A DNA stretch of 46,152 bases from Candidatus Scalindua sp. (GTDB taxonomy: Bacteria; Planctomycetota; Brocadiia; Brocadiales; Scalinduaceae), in assembly GCA_021777035.1 (NCBI GenBank), contig JAIQZR010000134.1:1-46152 (forward strand), written 5' to 3'. The translations under genes were made by a program, and so were the position numbers. Position 1 is the stretch's first letter. Every line of letters starts with the position of its first letter. The notes beneath the pieces are model-generated. The model ran no database searches and was not told the origin of the DNA. It saw only the letters and a program-made list of their open reading frames with translations. Of the stretch, positions 22,148-40,583 are shown one piece after another.

Positions 22148-23200
22148 TCAATTCTTCTTTCGCATCCATTTGGCATTTCGTCCTTTACCGGTGCTGACAA
22201 TAATGTCTTCATCACGTAACTGGCGAAGAACACGGCGCACCATATCTCTACTCGTACCCGCACACTCACGTTCAATGTCAGTTATGGAAAATGGCCCTAT
22301 TTTCCGCTCAACAGCTTTTCGAATCTGTTCTGTCTTTGACCCTTTACTTGTGCGTATGCTTCCCACACGATCTTCAAACTCCTTATATGCCCTGAGAAGC
22401 ACGCCCCAGAAATAAGTAACCCATGGCATAACATCGTGAGTGCCGTCATGCCATCCGGCAGAACTTTTCTCCAGGCTCTCATAGTATGTTTCGCCTGACT
22501 CCTCAAAGATACGCTCAAGACTGATATACCTTCCCACCTCGTAACCAAAGTGATACAGCAACAGTAGTGTTAAAAGCCTTGCAACACGGCCATTACCATC
22601 AGAAAATGGATGGATACATAAAAAATCCAGGATTGCAAGCGGGATAATCACAAGAGGTTCTTTTTTCTCGTGGTTTAAGGCCACATCATAATACTCAATA
22701 AGCTTTGTCATCTGTCCCGGCGTTGCTATTGCGGATGTCGGTTTAAAACGAATACGCGTAATACTCCCATCAGCATCCCTTTCAACAATCTCATTATCTC
22801 TCTTTTTCCAGAATCCACCCTCTGACGGCAAGTAGCGATATATCATGGAGTGCATCTGCAGGATTATATTTTCAGAAAAGGGTATGTGCTCAGCAGATTC
22901 ATGAATAAGGTTTATGGCATCACGGTATCCTGCTATCTCCTGTTCTGAACGGTTTCGTGGTTGAGCCGATTGCAGTATTATTCCTTCAATGCGCTTAAGT
23001 GGCGCCGTGATACCTTCCAGGCGGTTTGAAGATTCGCTTGATTCAATTATAGAGACCTGTTTCAGAGTTTCTAATATTTCAGGGGTTTGGGTAAAAAACA
23101 GGGCCTGCTTTCCTTTATACTCCCCTATGGTCTTTAGGGTTGATATATCCGCTCCATCAAATGCCAACTGTTTTAAATATTTGGTTTGTAATGAATGCAT
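22148..23200 (-). CDS. Fic domain protein, self-inhibited type
   Basis: Fic enzymes transfer AMP or similar groups from nucleotides to hydroxyl side chains of target proteins. The 350-residue protein has the intact motif HPFSDGNGRVAR (197-208). It also has an N-terminal inhibitory helix with the [S/T]xxxE[G/N] pattern (S58 to E62-G63 in SSNRLEG), so it carries its own brake, and a C-terminal winged-helix-like part (ITDIERECAGTSRDMVRRVL, RQLRDEDIIVSTGKG). The Fic_N/Fic architecture is common in bacteria, often near restriction systems. It lies between hsdR (76 bp upstream) and hsdM on the same strand. Its target is unknown. Confidence 0.9.
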   Translation of the reverse strand: MHSLQTKYLKQLAFDGADISTLKTIGEYKGKQALFFTQTPEILETLKQVSIIESSESSNRLEGITAPLKRIEGIILQSAQPRNRSEQEIAGYRDAINLIHESAEHIPFSENIILQMHSMIYRYLPSEGGFWKKRDNEIVERDADGSITRIRFKPTSAIATPGQMTKLIEYYDVALNHEKKEPLVIIPLAILDFLCIHPFSDGNGRVARLLTLLLLYHFGYEVGRYISLERIFEESGETYYESLEKSSAGWHDGTHDVMPWVTYFWGVLLRAYKEFEDRVGSIRTSKGSKTEQIRKAVERKIGPFSITDIERECAGTSRDMVRRVLRQLRDEDIIVSTGKGRNAKWMRKKN

Positions 23201-23276
23201 AATTGCTCTTGGTTTTAGGGGGCAATATACTATATAAATAGGGTAATGTCAAGTGCATATTACCCCATTTACTAGC

Positions 23277-26078
23277 TTATGTACCTATTTTCTGCACAAA
23301 ACCAAGGATTTCTTCGATTTCGCCTGCAGGAAAAATACCACGAATACCCTGTGGATGCAGTTGCGTAAATGGGGCTTGTATAAGATCCTTCTTTTCTACC
23401 GAACCTCGTTGAAGAATAAATGTCTTCAGGGTCAGGATGAATTGTATCTGCTTCTCGCCAAAGGTGTTGTGTTCACGCAAGAAATCATCAAAGGCAATAG
23501 ATACGGTCTCAGTATAGGTAGCTATCTCCTCAAGACCTAAAATGTGCTTAATAAACTGAATGAACTTCGCGCTCTTATTATCATAAATCTCCTGCAAGAT
23601 ATACTCTGTTACATGAGGATAGTGCTCTTTTAAAATACCAGCCAATTCCACTATTTCCTTATCGGTCACTGCATCACCCTGGACAATTCTCTGAAGCACA
23701 TGGTTTGTTTTTACAAGCTCACGAATAAAGCCTTCAACCTTACGCCGATATTTATCAACGGTCATGCGTTCATGCTGAGGCCCAAATTCAATTGTCTCTT
23801 TCACGGTGATAAGGTCCTGAATATTGAGTTTCTTCTCAGGAGTTATTTGTGTCTGCCGGTATTTCATAAGAGGCGCAAGGCGCGCAATCATCTCGTCAAG
23901 GTTATCGTCTGATGCTGTCACCCAGAAATGGGTTGACTGCACCTTCTCGATCCATTCGCGTTCACGATTAACAACATTCACGGTCAGTGGCAATTCGCCG
24001 ACCTTTTCAACGATGACCTCTTTCAGAATCTCGAATATTTCATCATCTCCGGACAATCGTGCTGTCTGGGCTTCAATTCCATCAAGTTCAAAACGCATGG
24101 CTTTAAAGTCTGCATCCGATAGCACACGCATAAGCGGGCTGATATACATGCGTAGATAATCAAGTTTCTCGTCTGTTACATTTATCCAGAAACTGTCATC
24201 CGTTACCTTTTCCAGACACTGTTGATTATCTAAAATGACAACAGAGTTCCCCGGTAATGCAGCAATGTCTTCTCTGATTGTACGAACAGTCTTCTGCTCA
24301 ATCGCTTCATTCTTTTTCTGTTGAGAAACAAGTAATTTATCAAGCCGAGCTTCAAAAAGCCTAACGGGAAGCGGACGTGTTCCTCCCTGCTCTCTTCCTC
24401 TCGGTGTCATTTGAAAATATTCAAAATTCTCCCAGCAGTCTATTATCAAGAACTTATCTTTTTCCGTACACCACGGTTTTATTTTAGCCAGATCAAGCAC
24501 ACGCGTACCACGCCCAATCATCTGCCAGAATTTCGTGTAAGAGAATATCGGCTTGGCAAAGACAAGGTTTACAAGTTCAAGAATATCTATACCGGTATCC
24601 AACATATCTACGCTAATGGCAATACGTGGCATGTCTTTGGTTTTAAAACGATCAAGAATACCACCTTTGCCATGAACGCCTTTAACATCAGAGATAATGA
24701 CTTCCGCAAGCTGCCCCTTGTATTCAGGATAAAGGGCATTAAAAACTTCGCACAACCGGTAAGCGTGCTTTTTAGAGATGGCAAAAAATATCGTTTTCCC
24801 GGGCAACACACCGTTTGGGTCTTTTATGCACTCCTCCATAAACTCACGTACAATGACCGCATTTGTCCCTTTATTGGTGACTTTCTTTTCGAGTTCCGTC
24901 CCTTCAAAATTGAATTCATCCGGATCTTCACCATCCCGAATCAGCCTGTTCTTTTCCGCTTCAGCTATAGTTTCGCTGTTAATTCCTTCCTGCTGGAATT
25001 TAGTGCGTAATTTTAGAACTTCAAAGTCAGATAAATACGGTGGGATATTGTTAATAGCTTCTTCATAAGAATAGGCAAATGTCGGTAAGCCATCTTCACA
25101 ATCGAATAATTGGAATGTGTTGTGTTCTATAGCGTCCTTAGGTGTGGCTGTAAGACCAAGCTGAATAGCGTCAAAATAATCAAAGATATTCTTGTAGACG
25201 TTATAAATTGATCGATGGCTTTCATCTGCAACAATCATGTCAAAATAATGTGGATTAAGGGGGCACTCTTCCTGCTGTATCAGATTGAGTATCGTCGGAT
25301 ATGTTGCACAATAAATACGTCTGTCAGGAGCAAACTTTACCTCACCGGTTTTAGGCCATACCGGCGCATTAGGAAGGTGTTCCTTAAAAGTCTCTAATGC
25401 CTGTTCTTTAAGGGCAATTCGATCTACAAGAAACAGCACTTTCTGTACACAGTTGGAACGCATGAGAACATCTAACAGCCCCATGCAGGTGCGTGTTTTC
25501 CCTGTGCCTGTTGCCATAATCAGAAGAAACTTCCGGTGTTTCTTTTCAACACGTTCGAGCACAGAACGAATCGCCTGGATCTGATAAGGACGCCCTGCGA
25601 TGTCCGTATTAATCAACTCACTTGAGAGCACCTTGCTGTTATTCCGCAGAAACTGCATGCGATCAAGATCGGCAATCGTGGGAAAACCAAATACCTTTCG
25701 TGGTGGGTACTGTTCAGTGTCCCAGAAAAATATATCGTAACCATTTGTATAAAAGACAAACGGCATAGGGCCACCATTTGCTTTCTGAATTTTTTCGGCA
25801 TAATTGCGTGCCTGTTCTTTTCCGACTTCAGCATCAACCGATGTTTTCTTTGCTTCAACAACCGCAACCGGCCTGCCTTCCTTCGAGAGAAGAGCATAAT
25901 CTGCAAAAAGATGGCCTTGATAAGGAGACTGCGTCTCTCTTACTCCCTGCGGTAGACCGACCCAGATATCAAGTTCCTGTGTTACCCGTGACGGATCCAT
26001 AACATCCCATCCGGCAACCTTGAGCCGTTTATCAATTATCTCTTTTCTTGTTCGTTCTTCGTTTCTGGTCATATACAC
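23277..26078 (-). CDS. hsdR: Type I restriction endonuclease/translocase subunit
   Basis: HsdR pumps DNA past the bound complex and cuts it when translocation stalls. The 933-residue protein has an N-terminal PD-(D/E)XK nuclease (D60, E75 and K77 in VAVVEAKK), then a superfamily 2 helicase with Walker A ATGTGKT (189-195), DESH (285-288), LTATP (309-313) and the later motif GRGTRVLDL. The C-terminal third is helical and should contact HsdM. All motifs are intact. The start MYMTRNEERTRKEIIDKRL is usual for this subfamily; the codons for residues 1 and 3 are both ATG. It is the first gene of an hsdR-fic-hsdM-hsdS order. Confidence 0.94.
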   Translation of the reverse strand: MYMTRNEERTRKEIIDKRLKVAGWDVMDPSRVTQELDIWVGLPQGVRETQSPYQGHLFADYALLSKEGRPVAVVEAKKTSVDAEVGKEQARNYAEKIQKANGGPMPFVFYTNGYDIFFWDTEQYPPRKVFGFPTIADLDRMQFLRNNSKVLSSELINTDIAGRPYQIQAIRSVLERVEKKHRKFLLIMATGTGKTRTCMGLLDVLMRSNCVQKVLFLVDRIALKEQALETFKEHLPNAPVWPKTGEVKFAPDRRIYCATYPTILNLIQQEECPLNPHYFDMIVADESHRSIYNVYKNIFDYFDAIQLGLTATPKDAIEHNTFQLFDCEDGLPTFAYSYEEAINNIPPYLSDFEVLKLRTKFQQEGINSETIAEAEKNRLIRDGEDPDEFNFEGTELEKKVTNKGTNAVIVREFMEECIKDPNGVLPGKTIFFAISKKHAYRLCEVFNALYPEYKGQLAEVIISDVKGVHGKGGILDRFKTKDMPRIAISVDMLDTGIDILELVNLVFAKPIFSYTKFWQMIGRGTRVLDLAKIKPWCTEKDKFLIIDCWENFEYFQMTPRGREQGGTRPLPVRLFEARLDKLLVSQQKKNEAIEQKTVRTIREDIAALPGNSVVILDNQQCLEKVTDDSFWINVTDEKLDYLRMYISPLMRVLSDADFKAMRFELDGIEAQTARLSGDDEIFEILKEVIVEKVGELPLTVNVVNREREWIEKVQSTHFWVTASDDNLDEMIARLAPLMKYRQTQITPEKKLNIQDLITVKETIEFGPQHERMTVDKYRRKVEGFIRELVKTNHVLQRIVQGDAVTDKEIVELAGILKEHYPHVTEYILQEIYDNKSAKFIQFIKHILGLEEIATYTETVSIAFDDFLREHNTFGEKQIQFILTLKTFILQRGSVEKKDLIQAPFTQLHPQGIRGIFPAGEIEEILGFVQKIGT

Positions 26079-28381: not shown

Positions 28382-29548
28382 TCAAACCTCCCGAAGTGAA
28401 TCTACAATGTTCATACGTGAAGCCCTGAAGGCTGGGAGGAGTCCGCCCGCAAAACCCATAAAAACGGAGAATGACATGGACTTGATGATGATTCCAGGAG
28501 TAATGGCAAAACTGAATGCAAGTTCTGAAAATGTCTGAAAATTCATGGTGGAAACGGTTAAGAACTGGAGTAAGGAAGCAAAAAGGAGACCGGCACATCC
28601 TCCAAAAAAGCCAAGGCTTAGGGACTCGAAAAGGAATGCGAAGAGGATGCTTTTGCGCTGAAAACCAAGAGCACGCAGGGTACCAATCTCCGCCGTACGA
28701 TTGGCCACAGCCGCAAACATGGTTATCATGGCTCCAACCACTGCACCGATGGAGAAAATGAGTGTTAACGAAATACCGAGTATACGCAGGAAAGTGGCCA
28801 TAGTCTCCGACTGTTTCAGGTAATAATCTTTCTCCCGCAGGATACTCAGCGTCAACCGGGGATCCTTTGAAATACGTTTCTTTAGTCCTTGAAATAGATT
28901 AGAATTCCGTAACCGGAAGATGACAGAGGAATATGTCTGACGTCGAAATGACTGCATAAGCTGATCTGCATCACCCCAGATTTCTGAACTGAATCCCGTA
29001 TCTCCGGCATCAAAGACACCGACTATGTTCCATGATCGCGTGGCAAAAGAAAGCGTTCTCTGTAGTCCAATATTTTTGAATCGTTTTGCCACACTCTGTC
29101 CAACCACGATTTCAGATGTACCCCACCGGGGCATACGTCCAGTAATCAATTTTACCTGAGGCCGTAAAGAAAGTGAGTGTTTGCCTACTCCTCGAATAAT
29201 CACATTCGCAACACCGTCGCTGTTTTTCTTCTGCATGGTGATGAGCACCAAAAGTTCTTTGGCAATCAGTCTCTGTCCATCTTCGCCAAGAGCTATTTCC
29301 GGCAGGGTTTCCAGTATGGATGCCTGGTCTCTATCTATCCTGCTCTGTACCTCAGTCTCTGCTGACTTTCTGAGGATAACCACGTTGTCACTCGATCCTG
29401 TTTCTATAAGGGTTTTCTTCAATCCCTCTGCAAGCATAATGATAGAAGCGAAGACAAAGACAACAAGGGCCATACCCAATGCGGTAAGAATAGTTGTTAA
29501 ACGTCTTGTAAAAAGATTGCGCAGACTATAGAAAAACAGAAGGCCCAT
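28382..29548 (-). CDS. ABC transporter permease, FtsX/MacB type (second)
   Basis: The 388-residue membrane protein has one N-terminal helix (about 17-38), a large extracytoplasmic domain (about 40-255) and three C-terminal helices with the FtsX signature (ANRTAEIGTLRALGFQRKSI). It starts one base after the preceding permease stop, so the two are co-translated and probably form a heterodimer. The set resembles MacAB/LolCDE-type devices that move lipids, lipoproteins or small molecules through the envelope with periplasmic force; the cargo is unknown. It is the last intact gene of the operon. Confidence 0.9.
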   Translation of the reverse strand: MGLLFFYSLRNLFTRRLTTILTALGMALVVFVFASIIMLAEGLKKTLIETGSSDNVVILRKSAETEVQSRIDRDQASILETLPEIALGEDGQRLIAKELLVLITMQKKNSDGVANVIIRGVGKHSLSLRPQVKLITGRMPRWGTSEIVVGQSVAKRFKNIGLQRTLSFATRSWNIVGVFDAGDTGFSSEIWGDADQLMQSFRRQTYSSVIFRLRNSNLFQGLKKRISKDPRLTLSILREKDYYLKQSETMATFLRILGISLTLIFSIGAVVGAMITMFAAVANRTAEIGTLRALGFQRKSILFAFLFESLSLGFFGGCAGLLFASLLQFLTVSTMNFQTFSELAFSFAITPGIIIKSMSFSVFMGFAGGLLPAFRASRMNIVDSLREV

Positions 29549-30703
29549 CTATCCAATCCTCCTCAGCCCTTCGGCAATTCGAACGGTCACAGCCCTGTAA
29601 GCAGGAAATATCCCTGCTAAGAGTCCTACGGTTACGGTAACTGCCATATCCAGATACAGAGTTTCCCCTGTTATATTAAATACCGGAAAGAATTGACCCA
29701 CGGCCAATGAAAATCCCATGGCTGCAGGAAACGTCAGGATGATACCGGTTATCCCGCCAATAATTGTTATCACCATAGATTCACCTATAATGAGCAAAGT
29801 GATCTGTCGGGCACGAAACCCCAGGGTTTTAAAAACCGCGTATTCGCCAATCCTCTCACGTACCGACATACCCATAGTATTAGCCACTACAATCAGGATA
29901 ATAAAGATGACGATAAACGATATGAGCTGAATGGCCTTGATAATGGCTTCGCTCATGGCAACGAACCCTAACTGAAATGCTTTTTCCGTTTCGGTAAGTG
30001 TCTCTGCAAGGGAATTCTTAAAGGATTCGTCTATTGCTTCTGATGTTTCGGCTGCTATATATGGGTTTTCTATTCCAATAATATAAAAACCAACATGGTC
30101 TGCCAAAGTGGATTGGTTTTTTTTAATTGATTCATTGAGATAATTCCAGTGGAAAAAGAATAATGTTTCGTCTATGTTTTTAGTCCTGCCTTCATAAATA
30201 CCGCGTAAGATAAAATCCCATTTACCGGGAAAGATGATTCCGGTAAGCGTTACGGTATCTCCGACATTCCATCCGAAACGATCTGCGAGTTTCTTCCCCA
30301 CAAGACAGCCTTTTCTATCACTTACGAACTTTATCCTCTGGTCATCGGGGATTACATATTCAGGATAAAGCTCAAGATAGCTCTTCGGTTCAACGGCAAA
30401 GTTGGCGAAAAAGTCCTTCTGATCAATATAATACCCACCGAACCAGTTGCCGTATGAAACAATCGAGACACCGTCAACACGACGGATGGTGTCTCGATAG
30501 GAAAGGGGTAGTCGAAAGATCAGGGATATTGAATTTCTTGTTACAAGGCGGGTTTCAGAAGAAGCCTCTACCCCGATGTACCATGCGTCAATTACCGTGC
30601 GAAGCAATCCAAAGGAGAGGATAGCTACTGCCATACCACATACGGTTAGAAAGGTACGCAGCTTATGACGGAAAGCATTTCGAAAAAGAATCTTAAAGAT
30701 CAT
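29549..30703 (-). CDS. ABC transporter permease, FtsX/MacB type (first)
   Basis: The product has about 384 residues with the same layout: an N-terminal helix (FRHKLRTFLTVCGMAVAILSF), a large outer domain and three C-terminal helices with SVRERIGEYAVFKTLGFRARQI. I set the start at the ATG at 30703 because MIFKILFRNAFRHKLRTFLT is the usual N-terminus and AAAGG lies upstream; the longer frame from 30766 would overlap the ATPase gene by 74 bp. With this start the overlap is 11 bp. It pairs with the next permease to form the membrane part of the exporter. Confidence 0.9.
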   Translation of the reverse strand: MIFKILFRNAFRHKLRTFLTVCGMAVAILSFGLLRTVIDAWYIGVEASSETRLVTRNSISLIFRLPLSYRDTIRRVDGVSIVSYGNWFGGYYIDQKDFFANFAVEPKSYLELYPEYVIPDDQRIKFVSDRKGCLVGKKLADRFGWNVGDTVTLTGIIFPGKWDFILRGIYEGRTKNIDETLFFFHWNYLNESIKKNQSTLADHVGFYIIGIENPYIAAETSEAIDESFKNSLAETLTETEKAFQLGFVAMSEAIIKAIQLISFIVIFIILIVVANTMGMSVRERIGEYAVFKTLGFRARQITLLIIGESMVITIIGGITGIILTFPAAMGFSLAVGQFFPVFNITGETLYLDMAVTVTVGLLAGIFPAYRAVTVRIAEGLRRIG

Positions 30704-31382
30704 GATTGAGCACACCTTTATCAAGATGTTCCATAGAATGCGCCCGTTTTCCCGCCCATGGGTCATGGGTTACCATAATAATGGTTTTGCCCAGTTCACG
30801 GTTCAGGCGATCCATGAGATCGAGCACATTCTCCGCAGAGGTCCTATCAAGATCACCGGTCGGTTCATCCGCTACTAAAATAGTTGGATCAGTAACAATT
30901 GCCCTGGCAATAGCAATGCGCTGCTGCTGACCACCGGAGAGCTGATTCGGATAGTGACCTACACGGTCTTCCATATTAACTACACTCACAGCGGCAGATA
31001 CATGCTCCTGCCGTTCACGTTTGGAAAGGCCGGTCAAGAGGAGTGGTAATTCAACATTCTCAAAAGCAGTGAGTACCGGAATAAGATTGTAGAATTGAAA
31101 AATAAAACCAACGTTAAATGAACGCCATCGAGCGAGATCTGTTTCGGAAAGAGTTGTAATGCTCACTCCGTCTATTTCAATCGTACCTTGATCCACATGG
31201 TCTAACCCTGCAATCAGGTTAAGGAGTGTGCTTTTACCCGAACCTGAAGGGCCCATAAGAGCAAGAAACGCTCCTCTCTCTAATCCCAGTGAAATATTTT
31301 CCAACACTCGTACAATCTGACTATCCCTATGATATGACTTGTATACGTTATTTATAGATACAATCAGTTCCTTCTTTTGCAT
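30693..31382 (-). CDS. ABC transporter ATPase, LolD/MacB type
   Basis: The 229-residue cytoplasmic ATPase has Walker A GPSGSGKST (44-52), the Q-loop FIFQFYNLIPVLTAFENVELP, the ABC signature LSGGQQQR, Walker B ILVADEPTGDLD and the H-loop VTHD. The ENVELPLLL stretch is typical of the LolD/MacB/FtsE family, which serve mechanotransmission exporters. It starts one base after the adaptor gene stop and overlaps the first permease. It should power the two-permease exporter. Confidence 0.94.
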   Translation of the reverse strand: MQKKELIVSINNVYKSYHRDSQIVRVLENISLGLERGAFLALMGPSGSGKSTLLNLIAGLDHVDQGTIEIDGVSITTLSETDLARWRSFNVGFIFQFYNLIPVLTAFENVELPLLLTGLSKRERQEHVSAAVSVVNMEDRVGHYPNQLSGGQQQRIAIARAIVTDPTILVADEPTGDLDRTSAENVLDLMDRLNRELGKTIIMVTHDPWAGKRAHSMEHLDKGVLNHDL

Positions 31383-32600
31383 TTAGTCCTCAATAATTTT
31401 TACTTTTTCCCCATCTTTTATTTTATCCGGAGGTGACAACACTATTCTGTCTCCTGCTTCCAGTCCGGAAATAATTTCGACCATATTATCGAGTCTTCTG
31501 CCTGTCACAATCCTCTTTTCCTTCACACGATTACCCACGAGAACATAGACTGAATCATGCCCTTTGTATTTGACTATATCGGAAACGGGTACTGCCTTTA
31601 TAGGTATTTGTTCTTTTTCCGTAATCGTTCGTTTAAGAAATGCTACCTTGGCGCTCATTTCCGGAAGGATGCCGGATTCTTTATCCATAAATGCTACTTT
31701 GACCAATACCGATGCCTTGCTCCTGTCAGCTGTAGGTACGATCATGTGTACTTTTCCACGAAACCTTTTATCCGGGAATGCATCCAGTTGAATTTCACAA
31801 GGTTGGCCGGTTTTGACCTGTTCGATATTTGATTCGGAAACATCGACCTCTACCTGCAGTGAATCCATATCCGCAATTGTTACCACAGAGGCACGAGCAT
31901 TGGTGGCAGCACCCACTGGTGTTACGATATCACCTACATCCGCGTTTTTTGTAAGAACAACAGCATCAAATGATGCACGCAAATAGGTATATTCAAGATT
32001 AACCTCAGCTTCATTTAGTGCTGATTTGGACGCCTGTAGCGCTGCTTTTTTAGCGGCGACAGCCGCAACAGCACTTTTGTGTCTGGCCTCAGAAACATCG
32101 TATTCGGACGGAGAAGCAACTTCATCTTCCAATAACTCTTTTATACGGTTAAAAGCAAGGGTCGCTTCGGTAAGTTCTGCCTCTGCCAGTTCTATCTCAA
32201 AGTGAGCAACTTCTCTATTGGCCTTTGCTTTTTCAAGAGCAGCAGTAACGTCCTTATTTTCTAATGTCGCAATGATTTCTCCTTTTTTCACTACACTTCC
32301 TTCTTCTACAAGAAGAGAAGCAAGCCAGCTGGTAATCTTTGAGGAAACGGCGGACTTGCGCTGGGCCACTACGTAGCCACTGGCATTCAGTATGGTAAAC
32401 GTCTGAGAAGGATACATTGTAGTTACTTTGGTAATCTCCACTTTGACACCAGGTTTCAAAATACCGGTTCCATATAAAATACCTAAACCTGCAGACACCG
32501 CCAGAATGATAAGCAATAGAACACGTTTTTTCCGCGTATTACGCTGTGTCAGGTATTTTGTCCTGTCAATGCGAAGCCTTGAAAGATCATCAACACTCAT
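31383..32600 (-). CDS. MacA/HlyD-type periplasmic adaptor
   Basis: The 405-residue protein has an N-terminal membrane anchor (VLLLIILAVSAGLGILYG, about 27-46), a lipoyl-like half (SLLVEEGSVVKKGEIIATLEN), a helical hairpin (about 110-205) rich in Ala, Glu and Lys, the second lipoyl half (LRASFDAVVLTKNADVGDIV) and beta-barrel and membrane-proximal domains. It would form a ring linking the permeases to an outer-membrane duct. No TolC-like gene is in this window, so the duct must be encoded elsewhere, or cargo is released in the periplasm. It is the first gene of the four-gene operon. Confidence 0.92.
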   Translation of the reverse strand: MSVDDLSRLRIDRTKYLTQRNTRKKRVLLLIILAVSAGLGILYGTGILKPGVKVEITKVTTMYPSQTFTILNASGYVVAQRKSAVSSKITSWLASLLVEEGSVVKKGEIIATLENKDVTAALEKAKANREVAHFEIELAEAELTEATLAFNRIKELLEDEVASPSEYDVSEARHKSAVAAVAAKKAALQASKSALNEAEVNLEYTYLRASFDAVVLTKNADVGDIVTPVGAATNARASVVTIADMDSLQVEVDVSESNIEQVKTGQPCEIQLDAFPDKRFRGKVHMIVPTADRSKASVLVKVAFMDKESGILPEMSAKVAFLKRTITEKEQIPIKAVPVSDIVKYKGHDSVYVLVGNRVKEKRIVTGRRLDNMVEIISGLEAGDRIVLSPPDKIKDGEKVKIIED

Positions 32601-33093: not shown

Positions 33094-35289
33094 TCAAGTG
33101 TCGTAAGCAAGATCAATCATTTTTAGACACATGACATGCAGCATCATTTTCGCATCGGAGGGAATTACGCATCCGGTAAAAAGATTCCATGCTTCTTCCA
33201 TCATTTTTCCAGCACTTTCACGGCAAGCTTCCAATGATCCGGAAGCCCTTACTAACTCTATTCCCTCTAACAATGTTACTTGATTTTTTCTTAAATCTGG
33301 CGAGCAGAGTATTTGTTGGAGTCGTAGCCGTTCTGTCTTGCCGAGTCGTCGCAGGGCCGCTATGATGACGAATGTAAGTTTGCCGTTGAAGATGTCTTCA
33401 CCGCAGACTTTGGTCCAGCGCGAGGAACTGCTGAAATTGTGAATGTCATCAACGATCTGAAAAGAGACAGCAAATGCTTGTGCAAAATCACTACAGACTT
33501 TGGACAATTTCTGGTCTGCTTCAGCGATTACTGCGGCAAAATCAGCAAGCCCTTTTGCCCCTGCGGCGGTCTTGAAGGCGTACATCTGCAGGATCTTAGA
33601 TTCAATGTCCTCCTCAAGCCACTGATCCAGCCGGGCAGATGTGAGTGTGCGTGACCAGTAGATATCTGTCGCCTGTCCGCAATGGGCATCTATGCAAACG
33701 CGCTCCTTGATCTCGTGGAGGCGTATACGCTTTTGCAAGGACAGTGCAGGATGATTCATCAACTCTACGGCAGGGAGAAAATAAAGAGCGTTAGCCGCGT
33801 TGAGCGCCACGTCAACCCCGTATTGGAGGTGGAGACATTTTCCTCCCCGGCGCAATTTAGAGTCGTCTTCAATATCGTCCACAATCAGTGCGCCCGTGTG
33901 AATCAGCTCTGTCATAGTACAAATCAACTTTTCGTATGGCCTTGAGATAACCCCAAGCGCCTCTAAAATGAGTATTCCAAAAATGGGTCGCCAGCGTTTC
34001 CCGCTGCGCTCAATCATGTCCCATACTGGTACTGATATCATTTCCGTATATGCTTCAGGTTCATGTTTCCAATGTGCCGCCCCGACAAATTTTTCAACAT
34101 GCGCTTCGTCAAATTTCCTTGGCAAAAACTCCTCGATACGCCGGTCAACACGAGCTCCAAATGTTTTCAAGTAGTCTTCAAAATCAAAGATATATCCATA
34201 TCCATAGAATTCACCTCTTCCTCTTCCCGTGACACTCTTGCCACAAACAGTGCCTTTAACTACGCCAGCGCCTTCCCAAACAGACCTCATTGTTCCGAAT
34301 GTGGCTATCTCCTGTTCGTCGACCAAAGGTTCGAAGGTGAAATAGGCATCCAAGTCGGGAATCGACAGCTCCCAGGCTATGGGATAACGAATATGTGTGG
34401 AAGGGCTGTCCCAGTATCTGAGTGGAGTAAGTATAAACTCCTGGGTGGATTGCAAACCATTTATCAGGTTTCTGGTTGTGGCATGTTTGGCAACAGGTTC
34501 GTTGTTCTTCGCGTTACGGTGTAGCATGATGATCCAATCAGAACCGTCGTTGAGGTTGATGCCAAACCAGTCCCAGCCGAGGACTAAACCACCCTGATGA
34601 TCGCGGAACCAGTCAATATCACCCCATTGGTGATCCATCCAAGCCTGACCAGTGATATCCTCGCCAGTGTCTAGTCTCCCCGTAACCGTTAAACGCGGGT
34701 AGGTATGATAGGCCATTCCTTCGCCGAGAAATTTATTATCACACACTACATCCATCCGCCTGCATTCTGTAATCAATACCATCGAAACCAGATTGCCGGT
34801 GCCAGGATCGCGGAATGTCAGTCTCATTTCTTCATCTCCCTGCGTCAGACTGAAATCATCCCACTCAACAGAAATTGGATCGGCGTCAAAAAGAACAGGT
34901 GACTCCTGAAGACGCAATGGGAAAGGAGGACCGTGCTGTTCTAATTCTTCGATAAAGACATTGGTTACTGTAGAATCCACGTGCGGCTCACTGGAACGTA
35001 GATGTTCAACCACCTTTTCTACTGACGCACGATCAATCCACGTGTGAGCAGCCTGTCGTTTGCCTTTCGCATCGAGCGATGCCAGGAGCAGTTGGAAACC
35101 GTTACGTTTTTCACCGTTCTTGCCTTCTAGAGTGACACGAAAAATAGTCACCATGAAGTGGCGCTGTCCTATGGACAAGTTTTCATAGTAGCCATGCACA
35201 AACCACCACTCAACCATACTCTCTTCCCGCGAGTGCTCTGAGTCCAGCAGGCGTATCTTCTGTTCTGTCTCTAAGGTAGATTTTTTCAT
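33094..35289 (-). CDS. Fusion of CrtC/AttH-like domain with polyprenyl synthase
   Basis: The 731-residue protein joins two enzyme domains. Residues about 20-375 resemble the CrtC/AttH lipocalin-like family (carotenoid 1,2-hydratase and secreted relatives): VEWWFVHGYY near 26-35, WMDHQWGDIDWF at 217-228, GWDWFGINLNDGSDW, and a second beta-rich half. Residues about 420-731 are an all-helical trans-isoprenyl diphosphate synthase: GKRWRP (430-435), first Asp-rich motif DDIED (471-475) with a following RRGG, and second motif DDIHN (614-618) followed by FNGKLTF. The last Asp of the second motif is Asn here. No signal peptide is seen, so it is probably cytosolic. It could make a polyprenyl diphosphate and act on its double bond or on a product. 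It stands alone on the minus strand. I know no described protein with this fusion. Confidence 0.85.
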   Translation of the reverse strand: MKKSTLETEQKIRLLDSEHSREESMVEWWFVHGYYENLSIGQRHFMVTIFRVTLEGKNGEKRNGFQLLLASLDAKGKRQAAHTWIDRASVEKVVEHLRSSEPHVDSTVTNVFIEELEQHGPPFPLRLQESPVLFDADPISVEWDDFSLTQGDEEMRLTFRDPGTGNLVSMVLITECRRMDVVCDNKFLGEGMAYHTYPRLTVTGRLDTGEDITGQAWMDHQWGDIDWFRDHQGGLVLGWDWFGINLNDGSDWIIMLHRNAKNNEPVAKHATTRNLINGLQSTQEFILTPLRYWDSPSTHIRYPIAWELSIPDLDAYFTFEPLVDEQEIATFGTMRSVWEGAGVVKGTVCGKSVTGRGRGEFYGYGYIFDFEDYLKTFGARVDRRIEEFLPRKFDEAHVEKFVGAAHWKHEPEAYTEMISVPVWDMIERSGKRWRPIFGILILEALGVISRPYEKLICTMTELIHTGALIVDDIEDDSKLRRGGKCLHLQYGVDVALNAANALYFLPAVELMNHPALSLQKRIRLHEIKERVCIDAHCGQATDIYWSRTLTSARLDQWLEEDIESKILQMYAFKTAAGAKGLADFAAVIAEADQKLSKVCSDFAQAFAVSFQIVDDIHNFSSSSRWTKVCGEDIFNGKLTFVIIAALRRLGKTERLRLQQILCSPDLRKNQVTLLEGIELVRASGSLEACRESAGKMMEEAWNLFTGCVIPSDAKMMLHVMCLKMIDLAYDT

Positions 35290-39569: not shown

Positions 39570-40583
39570 TCATACCATCTCATCATTTTTCCACTTACCC
39601 TTTTGTTTAGTACCGTCTGCCAAAGTCCATATTCCATATCCATTTCGTTTATCATCGCTCCACTCTCCAACATATGTATTACCATTTGCCCAGGCATATG
39701 TTCCTTGTCCGTCCCTCTTGCCCTCTCTCCAGTCTCCTACATATTTATCATCATTCTCAAAATAAGCCGTTCCATATCCATGTATCTCGTCACCCTTCCA
39801 CTCACCTACGTATTTATCACCATCTTGAAAAGTAGAGGTACCTTGTCCGTTTCTCTTACCCTCTTTCCATTCACCCACATATGTGTCGCCGTTAGCATAC
39901 GTTTCTGTACCTTGTCCATTACGCTTGTCATCTTTCCATGCGCCCACATATGTATCACCGGTTGCCCAGGTATATGTTCCTTGACCATTCCTCTTGCCCT
40001 CTCTCCATTCGCCCACATATGTATCATCGTTAGCATACGTTTCCGTACCTTGTCCATCTCGCTGGCCATTTTCCCATTTACCCGAATATTTATCACCATT
40101 CGCATAAGTTTCCGTACCTTGTCCATTCCGCTTGTTATCTTTCCATTCACCTATGTAGATAGCACCATCTGACCAGGTATATGTACCTTGGCCTCGCCTC
40201 ATTCCGTCGTTATATTCTCCCACATATGTGTCACCGTTAGGCCAGCTACATGTGCCCTGTCCATGCTTTTTATTATCTTTCCGGTCACCCATATATTTAG
40301 TGCCATCAGGCCAGGTATATGTACCGTGACCACTCTTCATATTGTCTTTCCACTCACCTATGTATATAGCACCATCTGACCAGGTATATCTACCCTGTCC
40401 ACTCTTCTTGCCATCTATCCACTCACCCACATATGTATCACCATTAGGCCAGCGATAGGAGTCCTGTCCATGGGCCTTATCATCTTTCCGTATTTGTACG
40501 TGTTGCTCCCTGACTTCTCCGGAGAACTCTTTGTTGCCCGCTTCTTTGGTTTCCCTTAGTGTTTTGTTTTTACCAAACCACAT
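39570..40583 (-). CDS. MORN-repeat protein
   Basis: The 337-residue protein has a charged N-terminus of about 44 residues, then 12 full MORN repeats of 23 residues and a partial thirteenth. The repeat plan is YTWxDGxxYxGEWKDxKRxGQGT. There is no signal peptide or catalytic domain. MORN arrays form extended beta-hairpin ribbons that bind lipids or proteins; the bacterial role is not known. The DNA repeats of 69 bp are very similar to one another, particularly units 6, 7 and 9, so recent duplication is likely. GGAG precedes the ATG by 8 bases. Confidence 0.93.
   Translation of the reverse strand: MWFGKNKTLRETKEAGNKEFSGEVREQHVQIRKDDKAHGQDSYRWPNGDTYVGEWIDGKKSGQGRYTWSDGAIYIGEWKDNMKSGHGTYTWPDGTKYMGDRKDNKKHGQGTCSWPNGDTYVGEYNDGMRRGQGTYTWSDGAIYIGEWKDNKRNGQGTETYANGDKYSGKWENGQRDGQGTETYANDDTYVGEWREGKRNGQGTYTWATGDTYVGAWKDDKRNGQGTETYANGDTYVGEWKEGKRNGQGTSTFQDGDKYVGEWKGDEIHGYGTAYFENDDKYVGDWREGKRDGQGTYAWANGNTYVGEWSDDKRNGYGIWTLADGTKQKGKWKNDEMV

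Follow-up and report, generated by a model that had tools for sequence, protein, structure and literature searches.

A CrtC–prenyl synthase fusion in a single reading frame

We analysed a 46,152-nucleotide contig of a Candidatus Scalindua sp. draft genome (JAIQZR010000134.1, assembly GCA_021777035.1; the whole stretch is called the window), in which one gene on the minus strand (33094..35289) fuses a CrtC/AttH part to an isoprenyl diphosphate synthase. The frame has 731 codons, an ATG start and no internal stops. An initial annotation, made from the letters alone, had described it as one frame carrying CrtC-like and isoprenyl synthase motifs, and all of these are in place: E27-W28-W29, D219-H-Q-W-G223, G430-KRWRP, D471-DIED, D614-DIHN and G636-KLTF. 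The Pfam search that it called for found three domains in this frame, namely the CrtC N-terminal lipocalin domain (PF07143; residues 26–223, 34621..35214, minus strand; E = 4.9e-11, 44 bits against a cut-off of 22.5), Lipocalin_9 (PF17186; residues 238–364, 34198..34578, minus; E = 1.1e-21, its sole match in the genome) and the polyprenyl synthetase domain (PF00348; residues 417–663, 33301..34041, minus; E = 2.8e-45, 155 bits against a cut-off of 27). Beside the synthase, Pfam gives only CrtC and Lipocalin_9, and no terpene cyclase domain. The AlphaFold2 model of the fusion is a single compact protein (pLDDT 94, pTM 0.92), and among the matches listed no solved chain covers both halves. The synthase domain is one of four polyprenyl synthetase loci in the genome, and the second motifs of the other three are ordinary DDxxD.

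A family spread over bacteria and archaea

The fusion belongs to a family. Scanning genome contigs yielded 359 confirmed relatives, of which the best 80 were kept, so the spread described here is a lower bound. A full-length homologue, with a query start below 100 and an end above 640, is present at 62 of the best 80 loci. According to record titles, the bacterial carriers include Ignavibacteria (Stygiobacter), Balneolaceae, Verrucomicrobia, Nitrospirae, Aminicenantes, Omnitrophota, Desulfobacterales, Syntrophaceae, alpha- and gammaproteobacteria, Flavobacterium, Spirosoma, Streptomyces, Nocardiopsis and myxobacteria, and the archaeal carriers include Methanoculleus, Thermoplasmata and Actinarchaeum. 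A plasmid search found the same three-domain order in a Streptomyces canus plasmid protein and, with extra domains, in Tolypothrix. These records refute a spurious join of two genes during sequencing or assembly: the full-length copies come from independent records, archaea included, and the plasmid protein likewise argues against a chance product. The error reading can point to Flavobacterium sp. Root935 (L106, 9941–12213), in which the CrtC and synthase parts lie in two separate frames; that split may be a mutation, an error or a true separation.

Residue counts below refer to an alignment of 65 rows, comprising the window and those 64 of 83 given loci that passed the full-length cut (L029 and L057, two copies of a single contig, are both counted). 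The remaining 19 comprise synthase-only loci, genes that are split or truncated at a contig end, and proteins whose N terminus has diverged too far. Trees of the CrtC and synthase halves, each built from 42 representatives, recover the same 20-row clade containing the window (SH-aLRT 99 in both), with L094 as a long branch between both clans, and the pairwise identities of one half correlate with those of the other at 0.92. This common clade and correlation indicate that the two halves have travelled together.

Stand-alone synthases akin to the synthase half were seen at spirochaete loci (L103–L105, L107, L108, L110 and L111), where the flanking genes on either side are conserved (clusters 11 and 12). 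In Streptomyces sp. NBC_01431 (L028, 9959–10984), a lone polyprenyl synthase gene adjoins an ABC ATPase and a permease.

The synthase half is very likely active

In the synthase half, R434, D471, D472, D475, R480, R481, K573, Q611, D614, D615 and D632 are invariant in all 65 rows, and K431 is lysine in 61 and arginine in 4. The set includes D471, D472 and D475 of the first Asp-rich motif, DDIED (residues 471–475, 33865..33879, minus strand). Judged by this conservation, the half is very likely an active enzyme. The second motif, DDIHN (residues 614–618, 33436..33450, minus), had been read as an unusual change that might alter the activity. Its last residue, however, is Asn in 53 rows, Asp in 10 and Gly in 2, and the aligned motif of 9hjs, a solved human geranylgeranyl diphosphate (GGPP) synthase, is DDYAN; Asn is the family's usual residue, and a special role for DDIHN was rejected.

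Among characterized enzymes, the half resembles GGPP synthases (1wy0 of P. horikoshii, 2dh4 of yeast and 9hjs), to which architecture the fusion adds its CrtC/AttH half. Against the NCBIfam GGPP models it scores far below the cut-off (82 of 500 bits). Small residues ahead of the first Asp motif go with chains of C20 or longer. Here the residue four places before the motif is Ser in 46 rows and Ala in 19, and that five places before is Gly in 58, Ser in 6 and Ala in 1, which fits a product of C20 or longer.

The CrtC half keeps an acid and a tryptophan pair

With a profile of 13 CrtC halves, the solved chains matched were those of AttH (E = 4e-41) and of kievitone hydratase (E = 3e-13), and D219 was placed on the Asp of WLDREW in the former and of WYDRQWG in the latter; a single-sequence alignment shifts the kievitone hydratase motif by five residues, and the profile brings it into register. 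D219 belongs to the motif W217-M-D219-H-Q-W-G (34621..34641, minus strand) and, by alignment to R. litoralis CrtC, AttH and kievitone hydratase, occupies the position of the catalytic Asp268 of R. gelatinosus CrtC (RgCrtC), and W239-D-W241 (34567..34575, minus) takes the place of the cation-stabilising Trp283 and Trp285. In the alignment to Roseobacter litoralis CrtC, the partner of D219 is the Asp of GYFD, and W239/W241 pair with WTW. For RgCrtC, Asp268 is reported as the proposed proton donor, with His239, Trp241 and Tyr266 also required (PMC4717167), and Trp110, Trp283 and Trp285 are required for the cation (PMC12402844). Across the family, W29 of the motif E27-W28-W29 (35203..35211, minus) is kept in 64 rows, W217 in 64, W239 in 63, W241 in 61 and E327 in all 65; the D219 column holds Asp in 58 and Glu in 5. 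The family thus retains the proton donor and some of the residues that cage the cation.

Kievitone hydratase (7a0q) shares the fold (Foldseek E = 1.3e-12), with W-x-D-x-Q-W-G in register with the fusion, but is a secreted, unfused fungal protein of 348 residues that acts on prenylated flavonoids. It is reported to add water at the prenyl end of its substrate (PMC5805349), and CrtCs are reported to convert geranylgeraniol, a C20 alcohol, to some extent (PMC6013536). Acid chemistry at a chain end is the likely activity of the CrtC half.

Substrate and proposed reaction

No match to the squalene/phytoene synthase family (PF00494) was found in the window's genome, which is 95% complete, so that the absence is uncertain, nor in 14 of 30 other fusion-bearing genomes, for which completeness is not stated. 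Within the genus, 1 of 13 genomes (the window's own included) has a match over the cut-off, and one more has a contig-end scrap below it. Because the family was unfound in these genomes, carotenoids would not be a general substrate; the synthase's own product is the simplest candidate and is probably what the CrtC half acts on. The competing idea, a carotenoid 1,2-hydratase fused by chance to the GGPP synthase of a carotenoid pathway, could appeal to the Roseobacter litoralis photosynthesis cluster, in which crtC is found close to a polyprenyl synthetase gene, and to the 16 of 30 fusion-bearing genomes where a squalene/phytoene synthase family gene is present. The genomes in which none was found make it very unlikely, and for the window's genome it was rejected on that ground. 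The host had also been called a hopanoid producer. Two squalene-hopene cyclase genes in its genome (G000:C132:4301-5257, L112; G000:C179:1576-2532, L113) agree with this, and the missing PF00494 match, itself uncertain in an incomplete draft, does not.

The reading that we favour, tentatively, is a bifunctional terpenoid-forming enzyme that first makes a prenyl chain and then protonates and hydrates its terminal double bond. The C-terminal half would build an all-trans prenyl diphosphate from isopentenyl diphosphate units, as its conserved catalytic residues suggest, most likely of about C20, a length suggested only by its likeness to GGPP synthases. The two-barrel CrtC/AttH half at the N terminus would take the far (omega) end of the chain, where Asp219 may protonate the terminal double bond, Trp residues steady the cation and water add to give a tertiary omega-alcohol. 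This alcohol could serve as a handle for glycosylation and sulfation, by fused domains in some relatives and by neighbouring glycosyltransferases elsewhere, and gene context suggests that in some lineages an ABC, MMPL or RND transporter encoded nearby then exports the product. A two-step enzyme had been put forward in the initial annotation; the fusion itself, the conserved synthase residues and a catalytic Asp and Trp pair kept family-wide, as far as archaea, support that part of the idea, and the supposed effect of DDIHN falls away. Hydration, over cyclisation or mere holding of the product, is our best guess for the second step, and one that we hold with considerable reserve.

Fused and neighbouring genes

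In three lineages the fusion is larger still: a single protein of roughly 1500 residues carries, ahead of CrtC, Lipocalin_9 and the polyprenyl synthase, a sulfotransferase and a GT28/EryCIII-like glycosyltransferase domain (L027:12103-16632 on a plasmid of the cyanobacterium Tolypothrix; L079:7637-12166 of Polyangiaceae, a myxobacterium; L092:7655-12139 of Actinarchaeum, a haloarchaeon). Elsewhere, a gene of cluster 13 lies within three genes of the fusion at six loci (the one member tested with Pfam has a GT28 C-terminal domain, E = 6e-5), and a UDP-glycosyltransferase lies near the fusion at L091.

Downstream of the window's fusion, on the same strand, is an exporter block (28382..32600), made up of an HlyD gene (31383-32600; Pfam) that lies 493 bp from the fusion, an ABC ATPase gene (30693-31382) and two FtsX-type permease genes (29549-30766 and 28382-29548). 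Exporter genes are enriched beside the fusions: ABC ATPases or RND/MMPL pumps account for 10 of 137 neighbours within two genes, against 5 of 377 farther away (Fisher p = 0.001). This comparison covers 36 loci thinned at 60% identity, with the window left out and L027 added. Many flanks are short, the family profiles derive from gene clusters of these same loci, and gene calls are the longest open frames and therefore unsure in high-GC neighbourhoods. An ABC ATPase is found within two genes at 6 of the 36 loci, and in the window. Individual exporters were recognised from Pfam matches, from the annotation of the record or because they cluster with such genes. MacB-type ABC genes occur at L041, L047, L058 and L099, ABC-2 genes at L026, L082 and L098, and a Dev-type gene at L027; MMPL genes are seen at L036–L039 and L045, accompanied by LolA at L037–L039; L046 has ABC and LolA-like genes, and L071 and L078 an AcrB-type exporter. 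At L060, the ABC ATPase is six genes off and beside an importer-type permease, and the locus was not counted among those with an exporter.

These neighbourhoods bear on a second explanation, close to the alternative offered in the initial annotation, in which the CrtC half is a carrier that binds the synthase's hydrophobic product and passes it on, with no chemistry of its own, either to an enzyme in the membrane or to an exporter. AttH (NE1406, 2ich), the closest solved structure of the CrtC half, with which it shares the two-barrel lipocalin-like fold, is a stand-alone protein without a known reaction, and its family has been linked with ABC transporters and LolD, with a proposed role in lipid transport (PMC2954199). 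Fusions also lie near ABC, MMPL and LolA-like genes above chance. Most members, however, keep the hydratase proton-donor Asp and the Trp pair, which exceeds a holder's needs, and at 26 of the 36 loci no ABC ATPase or RND/MMPL exporter lies within two genes. We consider a carrier role fairly unlikely.

Other neighbours recall terpenoid clusters and bear on a third explanation, that the CrtC half acts as a class II-like cyclase in which terminal protonation starts ring closure and no water is captured. At the Spirosoma and Telluribacter loci an FkbM methyltransferase and two P450s stand by the fusion (Pfam on L063, clustering for the others), and some clusters combine two P450s, a glycosyltransferase and a methyltransferase, as terpenoid clusters do. 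The prenyltransferase domain of Penicillium copalyl diphosphate synthase (PvCPS), a cyclase–prenyltransferase fusion counted here in favour of cyclisation, is among the matches to the synthase half. In fungal bifunctional terpene synthases such as PvCPS and variediene synthase, a prenyl diphosphate synthase is likewise joined to an enzyme that uses its product, but that partner is a terpene cyclase, whereas here it is an N-terminal lipocalin-type CrtC domain. The residues round the Asp also differ from those of hydratase CrtC (Y266 to W), and the CrtC mechanism was itself modelled on squalene-hopene cyclase (PMC4717167). Against cyclisation, the characterized members of the fold, in the literature extracts available, add water (CrtC and kievitone hydratase) or rearrange epoxides, and at three loci a Lycopene_cyc-type membrane protein, encoded one to three genes from the fusion, could do the cyclising instead (L035:8245-8982, L056:9208-9945 and L099:6298-7029; over the Pfam cut-off at L099, E = 9.6e-10, and below it at L035 and L056, E = 0.008–0.009). 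Cyclisation by the CrtC half is accordingly rated as unlikely. Tolypodiol and gromomycin were dropped as leads; for gromomycin, synthase and cyclase are reported as separate genes.

Several observations weigh against our preferred two-step hydration. With E values of 0.053 and 0.012 the alignments to R. litoralis CrtC are weak, and the motif supports the register of D219 more than the score does; two of the 65 rows have lost the acid at this position (one Asn, one Gln). Tyr266 of RgCrtC corresponds to Trp217 in the fusion, a Trp in 64 of 65 rows, and the residues aligned to His239 and Trp241 (columns 191 and 193) are Gly and Ala in the window, with neither His nor Trp predominating there across the family, although the alignment there is weak; because of these differences the water-handling site appears to differ from that of CrtC. 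The fusion thus departs at these sites, and in having no phytoene synthase family gene found in its genome, from carotenoid 1,2-hydratase CrtC, with which it shares PF07143 over the cut-off and the Asp and W-x-W in register. The 16 genomes with a squalene/phytoene synthase family gene and the 26 loci with no close exporter count on the same side. Finally, three congeners (G008, G009 and G010) keep the window's exporter at 80–95% identity, with different genes upstream of it and no fusion; its adjacency in the window therefore proves nothing, and it was dropped as proof of function.

Both halves belong to known superfamilies, and the joint enzyme and its family seem to be undescribed. Among the PMC papers listed by our searches and judged by title and the opening of the abstract, none concerned a CrtC–synthase fusion (subscription papers and preprints lie outside this scope), and the database records examined label these proteins 'polyprenyl synthetase family protein'. 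More hesitantly than for the enzyme itself, we suggest a widespread class of bifunctional terpenoid synthases of bacteria and archaea, in which CrtC would hydrate or cyclise the prenyl diphosphate of the fused synthase and feed exported isoprenoid lipids, often glycosylated and sulfated, some members being single-protein assembly lines that unite sulfotransferase, glycosyltransferase, CrtC and synthase. If so, bifunctional terpenoid enzymes gain an architecture with an acid-catalysing lipocalin domain as the partner, and end-modified isoprenoid lipids are predicted in uncultured bacteria and archaea, including hosts with no phytoene synthase family gene found. Cofactor-free hydration of unactivated double bonds is described as wanted in biocatalysis (PMC6013536 and PMC12402844).

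Host genome and gene gain

The source genome is a 4.16-Mb draft, 95% complete and 5.5% contaminated. The window's contig belongs to it, given that its YchF is 94–95% identical in five of ten congeners searched, the other five drafts giving weak matches only. Matches to the fusion protein were obtained in 51 of 58 relatives, each confined to the synthase part, and 4 of 294 genomes of the phylum (its own included) passed E = 1e-25: the window's, one further full-length homologue and two related stand-alone synthases. The G+C content of the fusion gene is 47.8%, against 40.6% for the window. This rarity and deviating composition suggest that the fusion gene was gained horizontally.

Some further features were noted in passing. 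At the archaeal loci L050 and L053, a phosphoenolpyruvate (PEP)-synthase-like protein of about 890 residues is encoded one gene upstream of the fusion, with PPDK_N and PEP-utilizers domains at L050. In the window, a protein with 12 MORN repeat matches (39570-40583) adjoins ychF and is 70–81% identical in three congeners, and at 22148-26078 a Fic-like protein adjoins a type I restriction HsdR-like protein.
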